A stretch of DNA of 13,887 nucleotides from Pseudoxanthomonas sp. (GTDB lineage: Bacteria > Pseudomonadota > Gammaproteobacteria > Xanthomonadales > Xanthomonadaceae): positions 1 through 13,887 of the forward strand of contig JAJAZJ010000216.1 of the NCBI GenBank assembly GCA_026785795.1, given 5' to 3'. Under the pieces are notes generated by a model that made no database searches, had not been told where the DNA came from, and saw only the letters and a program-made list of their open reading frames with translations. The position numbers were made by a program, and so were the translations under genes. Shown here piece after piece: positions 194-13,887 of this stretch. The number at the start of each line of letters is the position of its first letter. Position 1 is the first letter of the stretch.

Positions 194-1414
194 TCAGTCC
201 GCCTGGCGACGCAGGAAGGCGGGGATATCCAGGTAGTCGCTGGGCAGCTCGGCGGCCAAGGCTGCCGGCGAGGAGATCGCGGCAGGCTCTTCGCTGCCGC
301 GGCGCAGGCCCATGCCCGGATTTGCGATGGCGTCCATGCCGGCGTTGGCGTCGTAGGCCATGCCGGTGGTGCCGTCACGCACCAGCTTGATCGGGGCGCG
401 CATCGGCTGGCGCAGCTCGTCACCACGGCCGATCGGCTGGCGTGCCACTACGTTGCGGTTGAGGCCGGTGGCGACCACGGTGACCCGCACCTCGTCCTGC
501 ATGTCCGGATCCAGCACGGTGCCCAGCACCACGGTCGCGTCTTCGGCAGCGAAGCCTTCGATGGTGCGGCCCACTTCGTCGAACTCGGCCATGGTGAAGT
601 CCGGGCCGGCGGTGATGTTGACCAGGATGCCGTTGGCACCGGACAGGTTGACGTCGTCCAGCAGCGGATTCTGGATGGCCGCTTCGGCAGCGGCCTGGGC
701 GCGGTCGTCGCCGCGTGCCGAACCGGTGCCCATCATGGCCAGGCCCATCTCGCTCATCACCGTGCGCACGTCGGCGAAGTCCACGTTGATCAGGCCCGGG
801 CGCACGATCAGGTCGGCGATGCCCTGCACGGCGCCGAGCAGCACGTCGTTGGCGGCGCGGAAAGCCTGGATCATGGTCGCGTTGCGGCCCAGCACGGTGA
901 TCAGCTTTTCATTGGGGATGGTGATCAGCGAATCGCAGTGGTGGCTGAGCTCCTCGATGCCCTTCAGCGCAACCTGCATGCGCCGGCGGCCTTCGAACGG
1001 GAACGGCTTGGTGACCACGGCCACGGTCAGGATGCCCATCTCCTTGGCGAGCTGTGCAACCACCGGCGCTGCGCCGGTACCGGTACCGCCACCCATGCCG
1101 GCGGTGATGAACACCATGTCCGCGCCGTCGAGCGCGGCGATGATGCGTTCGCGGTCCTCCAGTGCGGCCTGGCGGCCGACTTCGGGGTTGGCGCCTGCGC
1201 CCAGGCCCTTGGTCACGTTGCCGCCCAGCTGCAGCTGGGTCTTGGCACCGCAGCTGTTGATGGCCTGCGAGTCGGTGTTGGCGGTGATGAACTCAACGCC
1301 CTCCACGCTGCTGCTGACCATGTGCGCGACCGCATTGCCGCCGCCGCCGCCCACGCCGATGACCTTGATCACCGCGTTGGGAGCCATTCTTTCCACCAGT
1401 TCGAAATGTGCCAT
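194..1414 (-). CDS. ftsZ: Cell division protein FtsZ
   Basis: FtsZ is the tubulin-like GTPase that polymerises at midcell into the Z ring and recruits the divisome. The 406-residue protein has the usual length and is complete. Visible motifs are the N-terminal [10 protein letters not shown] nucleotide-binding loop (about 20-29), GAGANPEVG (72-80), the tubulin signature GMGGGTGTG (106-114), and the T7 loop NVDFAD (210-215), whose Asp residues complete the GTPase site of the next subunit. A variable linker leads to the conserved tail [14 protein letters not shown] (393-406), the docking peptide for FtsA and ZipA. The start is supported by an AAAGGA ribosome site 8 nt upstream. It is the last gene of the cluster and the only one separated from its predecessor, by 245 bp largely filled by a heptamer repeat element. 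Terminator-like hairpins follow. Confidence 0.98.
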
Positions 1415-1428: not shown

Positions 1429-1438
1429 TATTAGTGCC

Positions 1439-1651
1439 GGGATTGGGGATTCGGGATTGGGGATTGGGGAAATCGCGTTTCCTTGTCCCGTTCCGTCACC
1501 TGCCGCCGACGTTTATGGTGTGCTTCGGTTTTTTTAGTTCGTGTAGCTCAAGCCATTCCCTCGCCGCCCTCTTCAGCCCTCCGCTCTCCGCTCTTTTCTA
1601 TTCCGAATCCCTAATCCCGAATCCCCAATCCCGAATCCCGAATCCCGAATC
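1439..1651. repeat. Inverted heptamer-array element 1, ftsA-ftsZ intergenic
   Basis: On the + strand the left arm has four perfect tandem heptamers, GGGATTG, GGGATTC, GGGATTG, GGGATTG (1439-1466), plus GGGA. After a core of about 134 bp the right arm carries six inverted heptamers, GAATCCC, TAATCCC, GAATCCC, CAATCCC, GAATCCC, GAATCCC (1605-1646), plus a partial unit. The arms are complementary over about 30 nt in several registers, so DNA or RNA could form a long hairpin. The core is richer in A/T than the genes around it (T-rich tracts near 1529-1535) and holds no ORF of note. The element starts about 9 nt past the ftsA stop, separated from it by an A8 run on the + strand (1652-1659), and fills most of the ftsZ leader. 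Related elements are at 2922-3069 and 6231-6380. Confidence 0.92.
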
Positions 1652-1659
1652 AAAAAAAA

Positions 1660-2895
1660 TCAAAACTCCCCCCGGTACCTGTTCTTCAACTTGTTGAACA
1701 GGCTGCCCGCCTTGCCGGTAGGCAGCGACGGGCGCCGTGGATGTTCGATCTGGCTGCCCATCAGCAGCAGGCCCACGCCGGTGGCGTGGACCGGATTGCC
1801 GACCACTTCGCCCAGCCCGGTGACGTGCTGCGGGATGCCGATGCGCACCGGCATCTGCAGCATTTCCTCGGCCAGCTCCACCACGCCCTCCATCTTCGAG
1901 GCGCCGCCGGTCAGCACCATGCCGGCGCTCACGCGCTCCTCGTAGCCGGAGCGACGCAGCTCGGCCTGCACCATCTCGAAGATTTCCTCGTAGCGCTGCT
2001 GCACGGCCTGGGCCAGCGAATGACGCGGCATCCGCCGCGGCGGACGATCGCCCACGCTGGGCACCTGGATGCTTTCCTCGGCGGTTGCCATCTGCGCCAG
2101 CGCGCAGGCATAGCGGACCTTTATCTGCTCGGCCTCGGGCGTGGGCGTGCGCAGCATGTGGGCGATGTCGTTGGTGACCTGGTCGCCGGCGATCGGCAGC
2201 GATGCGGTGTGGCAGATCGCGCCCTGCACGTACACGGCCAGGTCGGTGGTGCCGGCACCCATGTCCACCAGCACCACGCCCAGCTCGCGCTCGTCCGGGG
2301 TCAGCACGGCGATGCTGGAGGCCAGCGGCGACAGGATCAGGTCATCGATCTGCAGCCCGCAGCGCTGCACGCACTTGCTGATGTTGGCGGCGGCCGACTG
2401 CGCGCAGAACACCAGGTGCGCGTCCACCTCCAGGCGCACGCCGGTCATGCCCACCGGGTTGCGGATACCTTCCTGCGAGTTGTCCACCTTGTACTCGCGC
2501 GGCTGCGCGTGGAGGATCTTCTGGTCGGCGGGGATGGCCACGGCCTTGGCCGCTTCCAGCACCCGGTCCAGGTCGCCCCAGGTCACTTCGCCGTCGCGGA
2601 TCGGCACGATGCCGGGCGAGTTCTTGCACTGCACGTGCGCCCCGGAGATGGAGGCGTAGACCGAACGGATCTCGCAGCCTGCCATCAGCTCGGCCTCCTC
2701 CACCGCACGCTGGATGGACTGCACGGTGGATTCGATGTCCACCACCACGCCGCGCTTGAGCCCGCGCGATTCGTGCGAGCCGATGCCGATCACTTCGATC
2801 GGATTGCCCGGCGAATACTCGCCGACCAGCGCGGTGACCTTGGAGGTGCCGATGTCGAGGCCGACGATCAGCGATTTGTCGCCCTTGCGATTCAT
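1660..2895 (-). CDS. ftsA: Cell division protein FtsA
   Basis: FtsA is the actin-like ATPase that tethers FtsZ filaments to the inner membrane and recruits later divisome proteins. The 411-residue product is full length. It has the phosphate-1 loop GLDIGTSK (about 12-19), the FtsA-specific 1C domain in the region after it, the phosphate-2 motif LVDMGAGTTDL, the adenosine motif VLTGGASKMEG, and a C-terminal amphipathic membrane-targeting helix in SLFNKLKNRYRGEF. The ATG at 2895 overlaps the ftsQ stop as ATGA. A longer open frame runs upstream to 3081 but only reads through repeat DNA and carries no FtsA homology. No Shine-Dalgarno is visible before this ATG (the upstream minus-strand sequence is pyrimidine-rich), unlike most neighbours, so its translation probably depends on coupling to ftsQ. 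Confidence 0.97.
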   Translation of the reverse strand: MNRKGDKSLIVGLDIGTSKVTALVGEYSPGNPIEVIGIGSHESRGLKRGVVVDIESTVQSIQRAVEEAELMAGCEIRSVYASISGAHVQCKNSPGIVPIRDGEVTWGDLDRVLEAAKAVAIPADQKILHAQPREYKVDNSQEGIRNPVGMTGVRLEVDAHLVFCAQSAAANISKCVQRCGLQIDDLILSPLASSIAVLTPDERELGVVLVDMGAGTTDLAVYVQGAICHTASLPIAGDQVTNDIAHMLRTPTPEAEQIKVRYACALAQMATAEESIQVPSVGDRPPRRMPRHSLAQAVQQRYEEIFEMVQAELRRSGYEERVSAGMVLTGGASKMEGVVELAEEMLQMPVRIGIPQHVTGLGEVVGNPVHATGVGLLLMGSQIEHPRRPSLPTGKAGSLFNKLKNRYRGEF

Positions 2896-3764
2896 GATGG
2901 GGTGCCAAGTGGGGAAAGGCTGGGAATGGGGAATCGAGAATCGGGATTCGGGATTCGGGATTCGGGAATGGGAAAAGCAGCGGGTCGGCTGAGCGCGGCG
3001 GCTGCCGGGGGCGGCATTGGCGGCACCGCTGGCTCTTCCACAACTCCCGAATCCCGAATCCCGATTTCCGCATCCGCCCAAAAAAGGGCGAATCCATTGG
3101 TGTACCGCAGGTCCGCGCGCTGCAGGGCGTGCGGGTCGCGGGCCAGCAGCTGCGGCAGCATGCGCACGAAGCGCTGCAGGCGCGGGCGGGCATCGGCGCG
3201 GCCGATGACCACCCGCGTGCCGCTGTCCAGCGCCAGCGACCAGCTGCCGCGGCGATCCATGCCCAGTGATTCGACGCGCAGGCCCAGCGGCGCGAACAGC
3301 TCGCGCGATTCGTTGTAAAGCGCCACCACTTCCTGCACCTGAGTATCCGGGCCGGCGAGCTGCGGCAGGCCGTCGATCGCAAGCCCCTCGGGAATCGGGA
3401 ACAGCCGGCCCTGCTGCGACAGCAGGCGGTCGGCGCCCCAGCGTGCGAACGGCTTGTGTTCGGTGACCTCGACTTCAATCACGTCGGGCCAGCGCTTGCG
3501 CACTTCGGCGCGCTCCACCCACGGCAGTTTTTCCACTGCGTCCTGCGCGGCCTGCAGCCGCACCGCGAAGAATCCCTGCCCCGCATACGGCAGCACCGCG
3601 GCGCGCAGCTGCTGCGGGTCAACGCGCTCAAACTCACCGTGCACGCGCAGCTTGGTCAGCGGCCAGCGATCGGCGCCAATCCAGCCGTTGACCACTGCCA
3701 CGACCGGCAGCGCGACCAGGGCCAGGGCCAGCAGCCAGGCGAACAGGCGCAGGGCGGCGTTCAT
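2892..3764 (-). CDS. ftsQ: Cell division protein FtsQ with repeat-encoded C-terminal tail
   Basis: FtsQ is the bitopic inner-membrane divisome protein that, with FtsB and FtsL, links early and late division proteins. Of 290 residues, about 7-27 form a single transmembrane helix after a very short cytoplasmic end. A POTRA domain follows (about 36-104, including [19 protein letters not shown]), then the periplasmic beta domain, ending at [12 protein letters not shown] (218-229), equivalent to the E. coli FtsB-binding end. Residues 233-290 are foreign-looking: EIGIRDSG, a Pro/Ala-rich middle, then [18 protein letters not shown]. They are translated from repeat element 2. The start at 3764 overlaps the ddlB stop (ATGA) and has an AGGAGA site 7 nt upstream; an earlier in-frame Met at 3809 lies inside ddlB and was not used. 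The ftsA overlap is intact despite the insertion. Confidence 0.93.
2922..3069. repeat. Inverted heptamer-array element 2, inside the 3' end of ftsQ
   Basis: A 7-bp periodicity runs from 2922 to 2970: GGGAATG, GGGAATC, GAGAATC, three perfect GGGATTC units (2943-2963), then GGGAATG. A GC-rich core of about 70 bp follows, then the inverted arm with two perfect GAATCCC units (3049-3062) flanked by degenerate ones (3042-3048, 3063-3069). The element lies wholly inside ftsQ and encodes residues 233 to about 281 with no stop codon. The core ends look related to the arms of the other elements: GGGAAAAGC at 2970-2978 and GCTCTTCC at 3032-3039 are near complements and extend the stem. The more degenerate units suggest it is older than element 1 (inference). 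Confidence 0.9.
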
Positions 3765-4762
3765 CGTCCCGTCTCCTGCGCGAGGGTGGTTTCGAGGATT
3801 CGCCAGCACAGCGTCTGGAAATCCAGGCCGGCCTGCTGCGCCGCCTTCGGCACCAGCGAATGGCTGGTCATGCCGGGCGCGGTGTTGACCTCCAGCAGCT
3901 GGAACGCGCCGGTGGCGCGGTCACGCATCACGTCCACCCTGCCCCAGCCGCGGCAGCCTGCGGCCTGGAACGCCGCCAGCGACAGGCGGCCTATCTGGTC
4001 TTCCTCCTGACCGTCCAGGCCAGGACACAGGTATTGGGTGTCATCGGCCTTGTATTTGGCGTGATAGTCGTACCACTGGCCCTTGGGCACGATGCGGATC
4101 GACGGCAGCGCTATGTCGCCGAGTATGGAAACGGTCAGCTCATCGCCTTCGATCAGCTGCTCCATCAGCAGCTCGCCGTCGTAGCGTGCGGCCAGGTCAA
4201 CCGCAGCGGCCAGGTCGCTTTCCGCAAACACCCGGGTCACGCCCACGCTGGAGCCTTCGTTGGCCGGCTTCACGATCACCGGCAGCCCCAGCTGGCTCGC
4301 GGCCGCGTACACGTCCGCGCCCGCGACATTCGCACCTGCCTTTGCTGCGTCGCCCGGCATCAATCGCACATAGCGCGGCGTGGGCAGGCCCAGCGCAAGC
4401 CAGACCTGTTTGGTCCGCACCTTGTCCATGCTCAAGGCCGAGCCCAGCACGTTCGAGCCGGTATACGGAATGGCGAAAGCTTCGAGCAGCCCCTGCACCA
4501 CGCCGTCCTCACCGCCGCCCTTGTGCCCATGCAGGATGTTGAACACGCGGTCGAACTGCTTCTGCACCAGCGCCGCGGCCAGCGCCGGAATGCCGTCGAC
4601 CGCTTCCGCATCCACGCCGCGCGCGCGCAGTCCCTGCAGCACGTTGCCGCCGGAATCCAGCGAGACCTCGCGCTCGCTGGAGGTGCCGCCCAGCAGCACG
4701 GCCACGCGGCCAAACACGGCCGGGTCGGTGCTGCGCAGCGGTGGGAATGCGAACGGGCTCAT
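3761..4762 (-). CDS. ddlB: D-alanine--D-alanine ligase
   Basis: This ATP-grasp enzyme joins two D-Ala in the cytoplasm to make the dipeptide that MurF adds to the peptidoglycan precursor. The 333-residue protein is slightly longer than E. coli DdlB, with a short N-terminal extension. Visible are [13 protein letters not shown] with the catalytic-type Glu at 30, the [11 protein letters not shown] loop, [15 protein letters not shown], the ATP-grasp P-loop region EGSSVGV, YDYHAKY with the omega-loop Tyr/Lys, and the C-terminal metal/substrate motif [13 protein letters not shown]. The active-site loop contains Tyr (YDYHAKY), as in D-Ala-D-Ala ligases, so there is no sign of a D-Ala-D-Lac (vancomycin-resistance) enzyme. 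It starts inside the murC stop (ATGA, 4759-4762) and ends in the same way over ftsQ. Confidence 0.96.
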
Positions 4763-6207
4763 GTGCTGCTGTCGTCCTCGAAGCCGCTGTTGGCGATCTG
4801 TTGCGCCACCTGACCGATGTCGCCCGCACCCATAAGCAGCAGCAGGTCGCCGTCCTGGAGCACGTTGCTGAGCACCGCAGCCAGATCCGACACCTGCCCA
4901 ACCACGACCGGCTCGTTGCGGCCGCGCGCGCGGATGGCGCGGGCCAGGGATTTCGCGTCTGCGCCGGCGATCGGGGCTTCGCCCGCCGGATAGACTTCGC
5001 TCAACACCAGCGCATCCACCTCCGACAGCACCGCGGCGAACTCATCGAACTGGTCGCGGGTGCGGCTGTATCGATGCGGCTGGAAGGCCACCACCAGGCG
5101 CTTGTGCGGCCAGCCGCCGCGCGCTGCGGCGAACACGGCGGCCAGCTCGCGCGGATGGTGGCCGTAGTCATCCACAACGTGCACGCGCGCGCCGCTGGCG
5201 GTGGTGAACTCGCCCAACTCGTTGAAACGCCGGCCAATGCCGGAGAACTTGCGCAGCGCGCTGGCGATGTGTTCCGGGCGGACGCCCAGCTGCCAACCGA
5301 TCGCAGCCGCGGCCAGCGCGTTCTGCACGTTGTGCAGCCCGGGCAAGGCCAGGGTCACGTCCACCTGGGTGTCTTCAGGCAGGCGCAGGGTGAAGTGCAT
5401 GCGCCCGCCCTGCTGGGTAACCGCCTCGGCACGCACGTCGGCATTCGCGGCAAAGCCATAGCTCATCACGTGGCGCGGCGTATCCGCGGCCAGCGCGGCC
5501 ACTTCCGGATCGTCGATGCACAGCACCGCCAGCCCGTAGAACGGCAGGCGCTGCAGGAACTCGGCGAACGCGGCCTGGAGCTTGGCAAAATCGTTGTCGT
5601 AGTTTTCCAGATGGTCGGCGTCGATGTTGGTGATCACCGCCATCAGCGGATTCAGGCGCAGGAAGCTGCGGTCGCTTTCGTCGGCCTCGGCCACCAGCCA
5701 CTGGCCGTCGCCCAGCTTGGCGTTGGCGCCGGCGGCCAGCAGCTGCCCGCCGATGACGAAGGTTGGATCCATGCCGCCCTCGCTCAGCACCGCCGCGGTC
5801 AGGCTGGTGGTGGTGGTCTTGCCGTGGGTGCCGGCCACCGCGATGCCGCGACGGAAGCGCATCAGCTCGGCCAGCATTGCGGCGCGCGCCACGATCGGGA
5901 TGCGCTGTGAGCGGGCTTCCATCAGCTCCGGGTTGTCGTGGCGGATCGCGCTGGAGAAGACCACGCAGTCCGTGCCCAGCACGTTGGCCGCGTTGTGGCC
6001 GCGCATCACGCGCGCGCCCAGCGAGGCGAGGCGACGGGTGGCGGCGTTTTCGGCGCTGTCCGAGCCGGACACTTCGTAGCCCAGCGTGCACAGGACTTCG
6101 GCAATGCCGCTCATGCCCGAGCCGCCGATGCCGACGAAGTGCACGCGACGGAACTCCTCGGCCAGATTGCCGGTGTGCTGCAGCCGACGCTCACGGGCGG
6201 ACGCCAT
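4759..6207 (-). CDS. murC: UDP-N-acetylmuramate--L-alanine ligase MurC
   Basis: MurC is the ATP-dependent ligase that adds L-Ala to UDP-MurNAc, the first amino acid of the stem peptide. The 482 residues match the family length. Visible are the Rossmann-type UDP-binding loop [15 protein letters not shown] (25-39), the Mur ligase P-loop GTHGKTTTT (126-134), the EADESD segment (174-179), [10 protein letters not shown], and the C-terminal [10 protein letters not shown]. Residue 180 after EADESD is Arg, where I recall Gly or Ala in proteobacterial MurC. The ATG at 6207 shares a base with the murG stop (TGATG). A GTG directly before it at 6210 would give a GTGA overlap and sits 7 nt from the CAGGAG site, so either start is possible. 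DdlB follows with an ATGA overlap. Confidence 0.96.
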
Positions 6208-7463
6208 CACGGCGGGGCTCCTGCTGTTGCGGGATTGGGGGTTCGGGATTGGGGATTAGGGAAGAGCGAAGCATTGGCCGCGATTCGGACCTGGTTATCA
6301 CGCTTGTCTGCAGGCGCATTCGTGTGTTGCCGTTCTTGCTCCGGCTGTTGACGAATCCCCAATCCCGAATCCCGACTTCCCGCCTCCTCAAGAATGATGT
6401 CGGCGATGCGCTCGGCGGCATCGGGTTTGGCCAGGCTGCGCGCGGCCTGGGCCATGGCCAGTCGCCGCGGCTCATCGCAGGTGAGTTCGCGCAGGAGCTG
6501 CTGCAGGTTGGCGCCCAGCTGCGCGTCCTGCTTCAGCAGCAAGGCCGCACCGCGCTCCACCAGGTACTCGGCGTTGCGGGTCTGGTGGTCGTCCACCGCG
6601 GCGGGAAACGGCACCAGCACGCTGCCGATACCCACCGCACACAGTTCGGCAAGCGTGGATGCCCCGGCCCGACACACCACCAGGTCCGCCCAGGCGTAGG
6701 CCTCGGCCATGTCGGCGATAAAGCTCTCTACCCGCGCGTGCACGCCGGCATCGGCATAGGCAGCCGCGGCTTCCTCGCGCATTTTTTCGCCGCACTGGTG
6801 CAGCACGTCGATCTGGAAACCGGGCAGCGCCGCAAGCGCCTGCGGCATGGCCTGGTTCAGCGCACGTGCGCCCTGGCTGCCGCCCAGCACCAGCAGCCGC
6901 AGCGGAGCGTCGCGCCCGGCCAGGCGCACAGCGGGATCTGGCAGCGCGGCGATTTCGCCACGCACCGGATTGCCCACGGCCTCTTCCCGCTCAGCAAAGC
7001 TGCCCGGGAACCCGGTGAGGATGCGCCTGGCGAACCGGGCCAGCACCCGGTTGGTGAAGCCCGGCGCGCGATTCTGTTCGTGGACCAGCAGCGGCCGGCC
7101 CTGCAGCCTTGCCGCCAGCCCGCCGGGGCCTGCAGCGAATCCGCCGAAGCTTACTACCGCACGCGGTGCGCGCATCCGCAGCACCGCGCCCGCGCTGCGC
7201 ACCGCCTGCATGACCCGCAGCGGCGCGCCCAGCAGCGCCAGCTTGCCCTTCCCGCGTAAACCGGAAATGGCGATGGTGTCGAGCGGGATGTCGTGCTGGG
7301 GCACCAGCCTGGTTTCCATGGCACCGTTGGCGCCAAGCCAGGTCACCGGCACGCCCCGGCTGCGCAGCACCTTGGCCACGGCCAGCGCGGGGAAGATGTG
7401 TCCGCCGGTGCCGCCGGCCAGGATCATCACCGGTGCCGCTGCGGTGGAGGGCACGCTGCTCAT
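6207..7463 (-). CDS. murG: MurG lipid II-forming GlcNAc transferase with repeat-encoded tail
   Basis: MurG is the peripheral inner-membrane GT28 glycosyltransferase that adds GlcNAc from UDP-GlcNAc to lipid I, making lipid II. Visible are the N-terminal glycine loop GGTGGH (17-22), [10 protein letters not shown] (106-115), HEQN (128-131), NPVR (165-168), the second glycine loop GGSQGA (194-199), and the UDP-GlcNAc site [11 protein letters not shown] (264-274) followed by [14 protein letters not shown]. The enzyme fold ends near residue 361; MurG is usually about 355-360 aa. Residues 362-418 are an extra tail, [10 protein letters not shown], a charged middle, then [11 protein letters not shown], translated from repeat element 3. 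The boundary is sharp: codon 362 begins at 6380, the outer edge of the repeat. The ATG overlaps the ftsW stop (ATGA) with a GAGAGGA site 4 nt upstream. Confidence 0.95.
6218..6223 (-). promoter_or_regulatory. murC ribosome binding site
   Basis: CAGGAG on the minus strand lies 7 nt before the GTG at 6210 and 10 nt before the ATG at 6207. It sits between the end of repeat element 3 (6231) and the murC start, within the last codons of murG. The insertion therefore left the murC initiation region intact. The spacing does not clearly decide between the two start codons. Confidence 0.6.
6231..6380. repeat. Inverted heptamer-array element 3, inside the 3' end of murG
   Basis: The left arm on the + strand is GGGATTG, GGGGTTC (one mismatch), GGGATTG, GGGATTA (6231-6258), then GGGAAGAGC. 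A core of about 87 bp follows. The right arm has inverted units GAATCCC, CAATCCC, GAATCCC (6353-6373) and a degenerate GACTTCC ending at 6380. The whole element is translated as MurG residues 362 to about 411. The GGGATTA unit could give a stop codon (TAA on the minus strand) in one phase, but MurG reads it as CCT-AAT and avoids it. The core is not obviously similar to the other two cores apart from the GGGAAGAGC-type motif next to the arm. Confidence 0.9.
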
Positions 7464-12675: not shown

Positions 12676-13887
12676 TGACCCACCAGCGGCGCGGGCAGCG
12701 AAGCGGTGAGGTCGACCGGCTGGTCCGCGACCACAGCCGTCGGGCGCGCGCTCGCAGCCTGCCTGGCCTGGTTTTTTTCCTGCGCCGCGATCCAGGTTTC
12801 GATGTCATCGGGCGGCACGTCCATCAGCCGCAGCGAGCCGTCCATGACCTTCTGGAACACCGGCGCCGACACCAAGCCGCCGTAGTACGAACCGGCCTGC
12901 GGATTGTCGATGACCACGGCCATGGCAAAGCGCGGGTTGTCCACCGGCACCAGTCCGGCGAAGAAAGAAAAGTATTCGCGCGAATATCCCCCGCCGCTCG
13001 CCTTGCGCGCAGTTCCGGTCTTGCCGGCGACGTGATAGCCCAGGATGGCGGCCTGGGTGGCGGTACCGCCGGGCTCGGTCACGGTCTGCATCATGCGCAC
13101 CACCTGGCGCGCCACTTCGGGCGTGACCACCTGCACCGGCTCGTTGCGCTGGCCCTTGATGAAAGTCGGAGCCAGCGCGCGCCCGCCGTTGCCCAGGGTG
13201 GCGTAGGCGTGTGCGATCTGCAGCGGCGTGGCCGACAGGCCGTAGCCGTAAGAGATGGTCTGCTTGGTGGTGCCGCTCCAGCGCGCCGGCGGCGGGAACT
13301 GGCCGGCCGCCTCGCCCGGGAAACCGCTGCCGGTCTTGCTGCCGTAGCCGAAGCTGCGCAGGAATTCGTAGTACTCCCGGTCGGGCACCATCGCCGCGAG
13401 TTTCGCCGCGCCCACGTTGGAGCTCTTGCGGATGATCCCGGTCACGTCCAGCACGCCGTAGTTGTGCGTGTCGGTGGTGCGGAACCTGCCGTTGGCAATC
13501 CAGCCGGGCGCGGTGCTGAAGAGGGTGGTGGGCGTGACCACGCCCTTGGCCAGCGCCGCAGCCGCGGTCAGCGGCTTGATGGTGGAGCCGGGCTCGATCA
13601 TGTCGGTGATGGCGCGGTTACGATGCGCATCCGGCTTGCCCAGCGAGGCGGCGTTGGGGTTGAAGGTGGGCAGGTTGACCATGGCCAACACTTCGCCAGT
13701 GGCGACATCCAGCACCACCGCCGAACCGCTGCTTGCTTTGTGGGCGGTCAGGGCGTTGCGCAGCTCGCGGAATGCCAGGTACTGGATCCGGCGATCAATG
13801 CTGAGGGTCAGGTCTTTGCCCGGCTGGGCCTGCCTGACCAGGTCGACGTTCTCCACGATACGGCCGCGGTTGTCGCGGATCACCTTC
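12672..13887 (-). CDS. ftsI: Septal transpeptidase FtsI (PBP3), 5' end outside window
   Basis: FtsI is the class B penicillin-binding protein that crosslinks septal peptidoglycan with FtsW. Only the C-terminal part is present: the window edge cuts the gene, so the membrane anchor and most of the N-terminal pedestal domain are missing. The visible frame starts within the linker before the transpeptidase domain. Counting from the first complete codon with a possible start at 13883, the three active-site motifs are in order and spacing: STIK (100-103, the serine acylated by beta-lactams, coded near 13586), SSN (154-156) and KTGT (288-291). The usual glycine-rich segments lie between them. The end is Ala/Pro rich with no obvious domain. 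The stop overlaps the murE ATG by ATGA. Nothing suggests inactivation. Confidence 0.95.

Follow-up and report, generated by a model that had tools for sequence, protein, structure and literature searches.

The dcw operon of a Pseudoxanthomonas sp. (ftsW to ftsZ, on the minus strand of the first 13,887 nt of contig JAJAZJ010000216.1, a stretch called here the window) contains three elements in which a tandem array of heptamers, GGGATTS in the main, is followed by a core and then by the same units inverted. The three are members of a family of heptamer-array inverted repeats of the Xanthomonadaceae, and the family is already known. Probably they are mobile hairpin cassettes without cargo genes, similar to REPINs in form and to Rickettsia palindromic elements (RPEs) in effect, and gene junctions and protein loops can accommodate them because the common units are free of stops in every frame.

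A search of the window for the tandem unit GGGATTSGGGATTS, with at most two mismatches, gave 24 matches, against 0.27 (standard deviation 0.51, largest 2) in 200 dinucleotide shuffles. The three array pairs that an earlier note had picked out from the letters alone are real and lie where it had put them (Table 1), and they differ, as it had said, in arms, unit purity, and cores (138, 71, and 94 nt in elements A, B, and C). Arrays A and C consist of GGGATTS without tandem GGGAATC, and array B is mixed. The inverted arms could form a long hairpin, in DNA or in RNA; compared with shuffles, the predicted fold of the mRNA strand has z = −3.75 (A), −6.32 (B), and −4.42 (C). No Rfam family reached its gathering score in the window.

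The note had placed all three at the 3' end of a gene or just past it. All do lie at gene 3' ends, but only element A is beyond a stop codon (6 to 8 nt beyond that of ftsA) and untranslated; the other two are inside reading frames and open in frame, B as the tail of FtsQ and C as the tail of MurG. To judge from the sequence, both proteins appear to carry translated, element-coded tails. The stop codon of ftsQ overlaps the start of ftsA (ATGA), and the TGA of murG overlaps an ATG of murC (TGATG).

Table 1. Elements and genes of the window (left arrays have the units on the plus strand, right arrays the inverted units; genes by Pfam, which also identifies FtsW)
Feature	Position	Strand	Details
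Element A, ftsA-ftsZ junction	1438..1653	.	left array 1439-1466 (4 units); core 1467-1604; right array 1605-1646 (6 units, to 1653 with mismatched unit; 1598-1653 if mismatched units are counted)
Element B, within ftsQ 3' end	2922..3069	.	left array 2922-2970 (GGGAAT/GGGATT mixed); core 2971-3041; right array 3042-3069
Element C, within murG 3' end	6231..6380	.	left array 6231-6258; core 6259-6352; right array 6353-6380
ftsZ	194..1414	-	406 aa
ftsA	1660..2895	-	411 aa
ftsQ	2892..3764	-	290 aa from inferred ATG; element-coded from ~aa 232
ddl	3761..4762	-	junction with ftsQ element-free
murC	4759..6210	-	483 aa from GTG start; ATG at 6207 gives the overlap with murG
murG	6207..7463	-	418 aa; domains end at aa 353; element-coded from ~aa 362

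Units, arms, and cores of the family

In the genome from which the window comes, the double unit (at most one mismatch) matched 123 times, compared with once for the reversed control, and the triple units GGGATTS and GGGAATS occurred 21 and 20 times, compared with none for theirs. A strict paired pattern was present in 11 of 37 genomes of the genus (this one included) and in none of 24 genomes of the order's other families. The genome-wide look for the paired inverted layout that the note had proposed found it in 24 pairs of the same genome (in 20 fetched stretches) besides the three of the window. These 27 and 25 from three relatives make up the 52 pairs analyzed, all picked by pattern matches. 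A typical arm consists of three or four GGGANYS heptamers (four in 26 left and 24 right arms, three in 17 and 17) with an inner box of about GNAANAGC after the array on either side, and the inverted arms flank 8 to more than 100 nt of mostly site-specific sequence.

The unit sequence differs from element to element (GGGATTS, GGGAATS, GGGACYS, or GTGATTS), and the arms usually match: in the window's genome they were of one type in 20 of 27 pairs where 13.8 would be expected (p = 0.019). In genome G035 (locus L111) the murG arms are GGGACCG, the ftsQ arms are GGGAAT, and the ftsA-ftsZ junction carries an inverted spacer of GAGTGAG-like units; such a spacer replaces the GGGANYS element at the last junction in L095 as well. 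Triple units were counted on both strands of 24 chosen genomes (reversed controls, 0). The counts for GGGATTS, GGGAATS, and GGGACYS, respectively, were 354, 17, and 0 in Stenotrophomonas MMGLT7, 17, 245, and 7 in X. cucurbitae, 11, 2, and 610 in Xanthomonas AmX2, and 0, 0, and 123 in G010, while three of the 24 (G061, S. maltophilia G074, and G075) had none of any kind. GTGATTS triple units occurred in 11 of 38 genomes of the genus. Some arrays are very long, with ~98 perfect GGGAATC units in G012 (contig 1, 326879-327564) and 105 units in one right arm (L156, 1927-2661), and these exceed the maximum of 26 units that Rehm et al. (2015; PMC4692102) reported. In IMG/VR, 45 stretches (L165 to L209) contain the triple GGGATTS unit without mismatch. 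With element A as query, no phage matched, and one plasmid record (X. sacchari) covered 15% of the query.

Among 1275 comparisons of cores, one orthologous pair scored high (85). The next scores were 32, 28, 28, and 28, and at least eight further pairs were above the shuffle maximum of 25, so that there may be a weak residual likeness, perhaps the inner box. Since across sites only that one orthologous pair is clearly alike, the core may belong to the site itself and not be cargo of the element.

Reading frames through the elements

In all 98 distinct loci compared, ftsQ is open into its ATGA overlap with ftsA, including the 23 in which the site is filled; the lengths vary and are always equal modulo 3. 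At ftsA-ftsZ, where the genes do not overlap, the 33 filled lengths are spread 12, 11, and 10 over the three modulo-3 classes. At murG, the frame continues into murC in 28 of the 35 filled loci, all 28 without GTGATT in the sense direction, and the remaining seven all have such a unit and end at its TGA. With overlapping genes, then, most copies lie in frame inside the upstream gene, so that the overlapping stop and start are kept; with non-overlapping genes, the copy lies behind the stop. Reading through an element would give a tail or a loop, and in murG a GTGATT unit would supply the stop instead.

Because the unit is 7 nt long, every frame of a strand gives the same cyclic heptapeptide from an array (GIRDSGF or ESRIPNP), and for this reason the common units are free of stops in all six frames. 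Nine GGGANYS units tested are stop-free on both strands; GTGATTC, GTGATTG, and GGGATTA contain stops.

Of the 49 pairs beyond the window, four are within one long frame, namely in dnaE (the gene of the replicative DNA polymerase) of G027, in hrpA of G027 and G034 (one orthologous site), and in yoaA of the window's own genome. The dnaE element of G027 occupies amino acids 593-626 of 1211, at a site that corresponds to the loop at residues 576-581 of E. coli chain 5fku_A, and the yoaA element occupies amino acids 366-401 of 699. Eight dnaE genes were fetched and their codons counted between fixed anchors. There are 29, element-free, in G019, G026, G035, and G061; 55, with a complete GGGATTG-type pair, in G027 and G034; 33, with a single solo GGGAATG array, in the own genome; and 228 in G010 (L214; contig 1, 137300-141700), where the arrays are GGGACYC and a 90-bp segment is present six times in frame. 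The same contig of G010 has a 72-bp-spaced series at 13015-13546. The match tables of the other genomes of the genus (38 searched, G003 lacking a full dnaE) contain no insert above ~21 nt at this site of dnaE, although a short solo array could have escaped notice, and no such insert was found in 14 further genomes, 11 of them Xanthomonas.

The variable linker of yoaA holds an element in the own genome (60 codons) and in G030 (57), and the eight others fetched have 37-45 codons. In dnaE as in yoaA, the element takes the place of local loop sequence. Thirteen loci provided further candidates within genes (L216 to L228), seven with a frame open through the element. One of the seven (L218, a T2SSE ATPase) looks to be in-gene, and three are at the upstream edge of a gene (L216 and L217, CysNC; L227, NadD). 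In the other three (L219, L220, and L224) the searched frames matched no family; these are unlikely to be genes.

Gene junctions and the exchange of alleles

The positions of the 49 pairs outside the window were determined with an own codon-usage gene caller, trained on the genes of the window and recovering them. Forty pairs are between co-directional genes, one between divergent genes, and none between convergent genes; four are at stretch edges and four inside a called gene. The distance to the nearest 3' end has a median of 5 nt (36 of 41 from −11 to +13) and that to the nearest 5' end a median of 16 nt. Element-free junctions of the same loci are of mixed orientation (65 co-directional, 11 divergent, 9 convergent), even when their gaps are at least 40 nt (37, 11, and 6, hence 37 of 54 co-directional). 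Since 40 of 41 classifiable pairs fall between co-directional genes, against this mixture, the preference is for such junctions and not for 3' ends as such: the note had rightly seen a strong association with gene ends, but its 3'-end preference is better put in these terms. A further 102 of 102 aligned pairs were excluded from the evidence, as those loci center on the co-directional dcw cluster. A function as transcription terminator was rejected at overlapping junctions, where the frame runs through, and is unlikely overall, with none of the 41 pairs between convergent genes.

A junction was considered filled if the detector found at least three tandem units. Decayed copies and copies of other units (X. 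albilineans, L082 at murG, the GAGTGAG-like spacers of L095 and L111) are uncounted, and the counts are lower bounds. Filled in this sense are murG in 35 of 97 distinct loci, ftsQ in 23 of 98, ftsA-ftsZ in 33 of 98, and ddl-ftsQ in 25 of 98. In 28 Xanthomonas loci the numbers are 25 for murG, 16 for ftsQ, and 25 for ftsA-ftsZ, and the same three sites are element-free in nearly all Stenotrophomonas and many Pseudoxanthomonas loci. In one group of Xanthomonas ftsQ alleles the left arm has decayed. Occupancy is patchy on a FastTree tree, with at least 11 (murG), 12 (ddl), 15 (ftsQ), and 10 (ftsA-ftsZ) changes, and the sites are not filled in all relatives. The note's notion of separate insertions of one family survives in that the family is dispersed and the three copies are not local duplicates; they are not, however, recent insertions private to the lineage, the junctions being filled in relatives too, in the majority of Xanthomonas loci and in some of Pseudoxanthomonas. 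In the tree of 98 loci, the source assembly (a 2.0-Mb draft of 359 contigs) clusters with Pseudoxanthomonas gei, P. sacheonensis, and strain CF125. L057, titled Bacillus subtilis SK7B5, nests inside Stenotrophomonas in the dcw tree and is probably mislabeled or contaminated. In one S. maltophilia strain (L050) the gap between murC and ddl is 733 nt, compared with 8-14 nt in most relatives.

The alleles at these junctions track the flanking genes weakly, as though they had been traded between species. In X. arboricola NL_P126 (L082), the murG and murC flanks are 0.89-0.97 identical to those of four other X. arboricola loci, the junction only 0.42-0.45 (against L067, 0.45 with flanks of 0.91-0.97). 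The same junction is 0.80 identical to that of X. euvesicatoria (L087), with flanks of 0.80-0.95. Sites informative between L082 and L087 are own-type at −1 and −22 upstream and at +4, +33, and +46 downstream, and donor-type at +2, +14, +81, −205, and −211. At ftsQ, L073 is own-type at −16 and +42 and donor-type at −163 and −175; switch points at ftsA-ftsZ are wider or uncertain. G014 has an ftsA-ftsZ junction very similar to that of P. sp. z9, and P. mexicana, the sister of G014, is empty there.

Over 253 pairs from 23 Xanthomonas loci, the correlation between junction identity and flank identity is 0.34 for murG, 0.45 for ddl, 0.31 for ftsQ, and 0.12 for ftsA-ftsZ, and 0.54 for a control spacer after ftsZ. 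Among the pairs with the closest flanks, junction identity falls below 0.65 in 10 of 42 (murG), 22 of 39 (ddl), 2 of 45 (ftsQ), and 25 of 41 (ftsA-ftsZ). Short-tract recombination, old shared alleles, and fast turnover of the repeats can all have contributed to this pattern, and replacement specific to the element is a candidate as well. Switching of units in place around a conserved core was also considered and is weakened, because at murG the type of unit and the type of core change together (by inspection).

Explanations and known repeats

How might such a distribution have come about? If the elements are mobile cassettes, an enzyme would have scattered them, the insertions would have survived mainly between co-directional genes, and their later spread across species would have been largely through short-tract exchange of the junction allele. 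By default, the three copies in the window would be selfish or neutral DNA that the host tolerates and from which MurG and FtsQ gain tails, with a modest effect of the hairpin on mRNA possible in the untranslated ftsA-ftsZ spacer.

Several observations weigh against this account. The comparisons showed no transposition and allowed no target-site duplication to be defined, and no mobilizing enzyme was found (Y1_Tnp was the one examined). The filled alleles of dnaE, yoaA, and ftsA-ftsZ replace local sequence and are not simply the empty allele plus an insert. Cores at the same site are only moderately like those of the window (p ≤ 0.05 in 20 of 28, 20 of 33, and 23 of 33 loci, flanks included and duplicates kept), and the likeness of cores at other sites to the window's ranges from 1 of 33 to 12 of 28 loci (p ≤ 0.05). 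G005 (L093), a sister of species with arrays, has a core-like ftsA-ftsZ spacer without arrays. This suggests that the core there is native, so that arms and core together may not be the moving unit, and because such a spacer exists, perhaps it is the single arm that moves. As to exchange, just 2 of 45 closest-flank pairs have unlike junctions at ftsQ, and fast evolution of the repeats can partly yield a low correlation of junction with flank. One of the 23 filled ftsQ loci has a sense GTGATT yet reads through. Finally, openness accounts for tolerance but does not in itself point to selection, because it is common among GC-rich heptamers: 74% of random heptamers of 67% GC read without a stop, and an array of GGGATTA (a unit seen singly here) would not.

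A bolder version of the cassette reading, put forward tentatively, is that of a protein-invading palindromic family outside Rickettsia: a frame-agnostic hairpin that would lie between genes, or form the tails of MurG and FtsQ, or become amplified as in DnaE of G010, moved by an agent other than a REP-associated tyrosine transposase (RAYT) and traded again between species site by site.

It is unlikely that the elements are instead a selected intercistronic structure, a hairpin or a G-quadruplex in the G-rich arm, that tunes the stability or processing of mRNA in the dcw operon. The strong predicted hairpins, the location of 40 of 41 classifiable pairs between co-directional genes, the matched unit types of the arms (20 of 27 pairs), and the report by Rehm et al. 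(PMC4692102) of quadruplexes in vitro and of transcription all speak for such a structure. But nearly all Stenotrophomonas and many Pseudoxanthomonas loci lack an element at these sites, the frame runs through ftsQ and most murG copies, the left arm has decayed in one Xanthomonas group of ftsQ alleles, copies are found inside dnaE, yoaA, and hrpA, and the main text of Rehm et al. identifies no regulatory role.

Or perhaps there is no mobile cassette, and the pairs arise in place: arrays expand by slippage and are copied inverted, by template switching, across a local hairpin. This would suit cores that are largely unrelated between sites, arms that match within an element while the elements of one genome differ, the solo array in dnaE of the own genome, the array-less core-like spacer of G005, and the arm of ~105 units. 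It is decidedly doubtful all the same, since many unrelated sites of a genome share the same heptamers, the inner box, and arms of three or four units, and for this there must have been copying from site to site.

Mobilization as true REPINs by a RAYT (Y1_Tnp) transposase is very improbable and was not supported: the form is the same (inverted doublet, hairpin, variable loop, many copies) and Y1_Tnp genes are present in 35 of 38 genomes of the genus, but the element-rich complete genome G018 (167 GGGATTS triple-unit matches) has no Y1_Tnp match, none of 20 fetched Y1_Tnp loci (of 105 matches; one stretch only 1.4 kb) has an array of at least three units within ~1.1 kb (background, 13 of 80 pieces of 1.3 kb, biased upwards because they come from element-chosen loci), no GTAG head recurs, and the GTAG REPs of Xanthomonas are a separate set served by RAYTs of their own (PMC2817692).

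If the cassette reading is true, then the quadruplex-forming Xanthomonas repeat of 2015 also supplies essential enzymes with new protein sequence and marks very short-tract exchange between species. The natural sets of filled and empty alleles (murG, ftsQ, ftsA-ftsZ, dnaE, and yoaA) would allow the cost of a hairpin, a tail, or a polymerase loop insert to be measured, and they make the question of what moves the arrays testable.

The Xanthomonadaceae repeats that the earlier note mentioned are indeed described in Xanthomonas, in the main text of Rehm et al. (2015; PMC4692102): G-rich GGGAATC arrays with a preference for about four units, in convergent inverted pairs (70 in Xcc and 75 in Xac). 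These lie mostly outside genes, within 50 bp of stop codons, and for the most part between aligned genes. They are mostly at the same place in the two species, 11% and 7% overlap a gene at least partly, and a figure legend names dnaE as a repeat-associated gene. The quadruplexes and transcription mentioned above are reported there for Xanthomonas sequences. That family was defined by tandem (GGGANTN)n of at least 14 bp with at least one GGGAATC. The present genome likewise has tandem heptamers (21 GGGATTS and 20 GGGAATS triple units), convergent pairs, and positions near stop codons between aligned genes, but the earlier search required GGGAATC, and the set here also has GGGATTS, GGGACYS, and GTGATTS arrays. 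Insertion in frame in proteins, allele-linked unit types, and exchange of junctions across species are not described in that main text, in which the words 'amino acid' and 'transposase' do not occur (its supplements were outside the scope). As far as searches show, in literature that excluded most subscription papers and all supplements, neither the protein-invading behavior, nor the diversity of unit types, nor junction exchange has been described for the family. Two papers on Xanthomonas (PMC8002079 and PMC6459536) use GGGATTC as a repeat for typing.

REPINs, or doublets of repetitive extragenic palindromic (REP) sequences (Bertels and Rainey 2011, PMC3116915), are like the present elements in being inverted doublets of short repeats with a hairpin, a less conserved spacer, a high copy number, and a mainly extragenic location, and the predicted fold agrees with a hairpin-forming doublet here. 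The present arms differ in being tandem arrays of heptamers without a recurrent GTAG head and without a detected association with RAYTs; in the outer 8-nt flanks of the 52 pairs no GTAG or CGTC head recurs, single occurrences (L127 and L160) aside. With regard to miniature inverted-repeat transposable elements, the filled alleles replace local sequence and a target-site duplication is not definable, and the search for related insertion sequences covered Y1_Tnp only.

Two further families differ from the present elements: the enterobacterial repetitive intergenic consensus (ERIC) is not known to contain tandem heptamers, and RPEs have other sequences. ERIC and other enterobacterial repeat units (Delihas 2007, PMC2759123) share with the present elements that they are small intergenic repeats sometimes fused to genes. 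RPEs (Ogata et al., as described in PMC10969869 and PMC3733652) share a length of ~150 bp, the palindromic form, and an in-frame location in unrelated protein genes, to which they add a peptide. They belong to another group of hosts, and the present copies, made of heptamer arrays, are mostly between genes. Open frames point to in-frame insertion in unrelated protein genes here too, in dnaE, yoaA, and hrpA and in the tails of murG and ftsQ.

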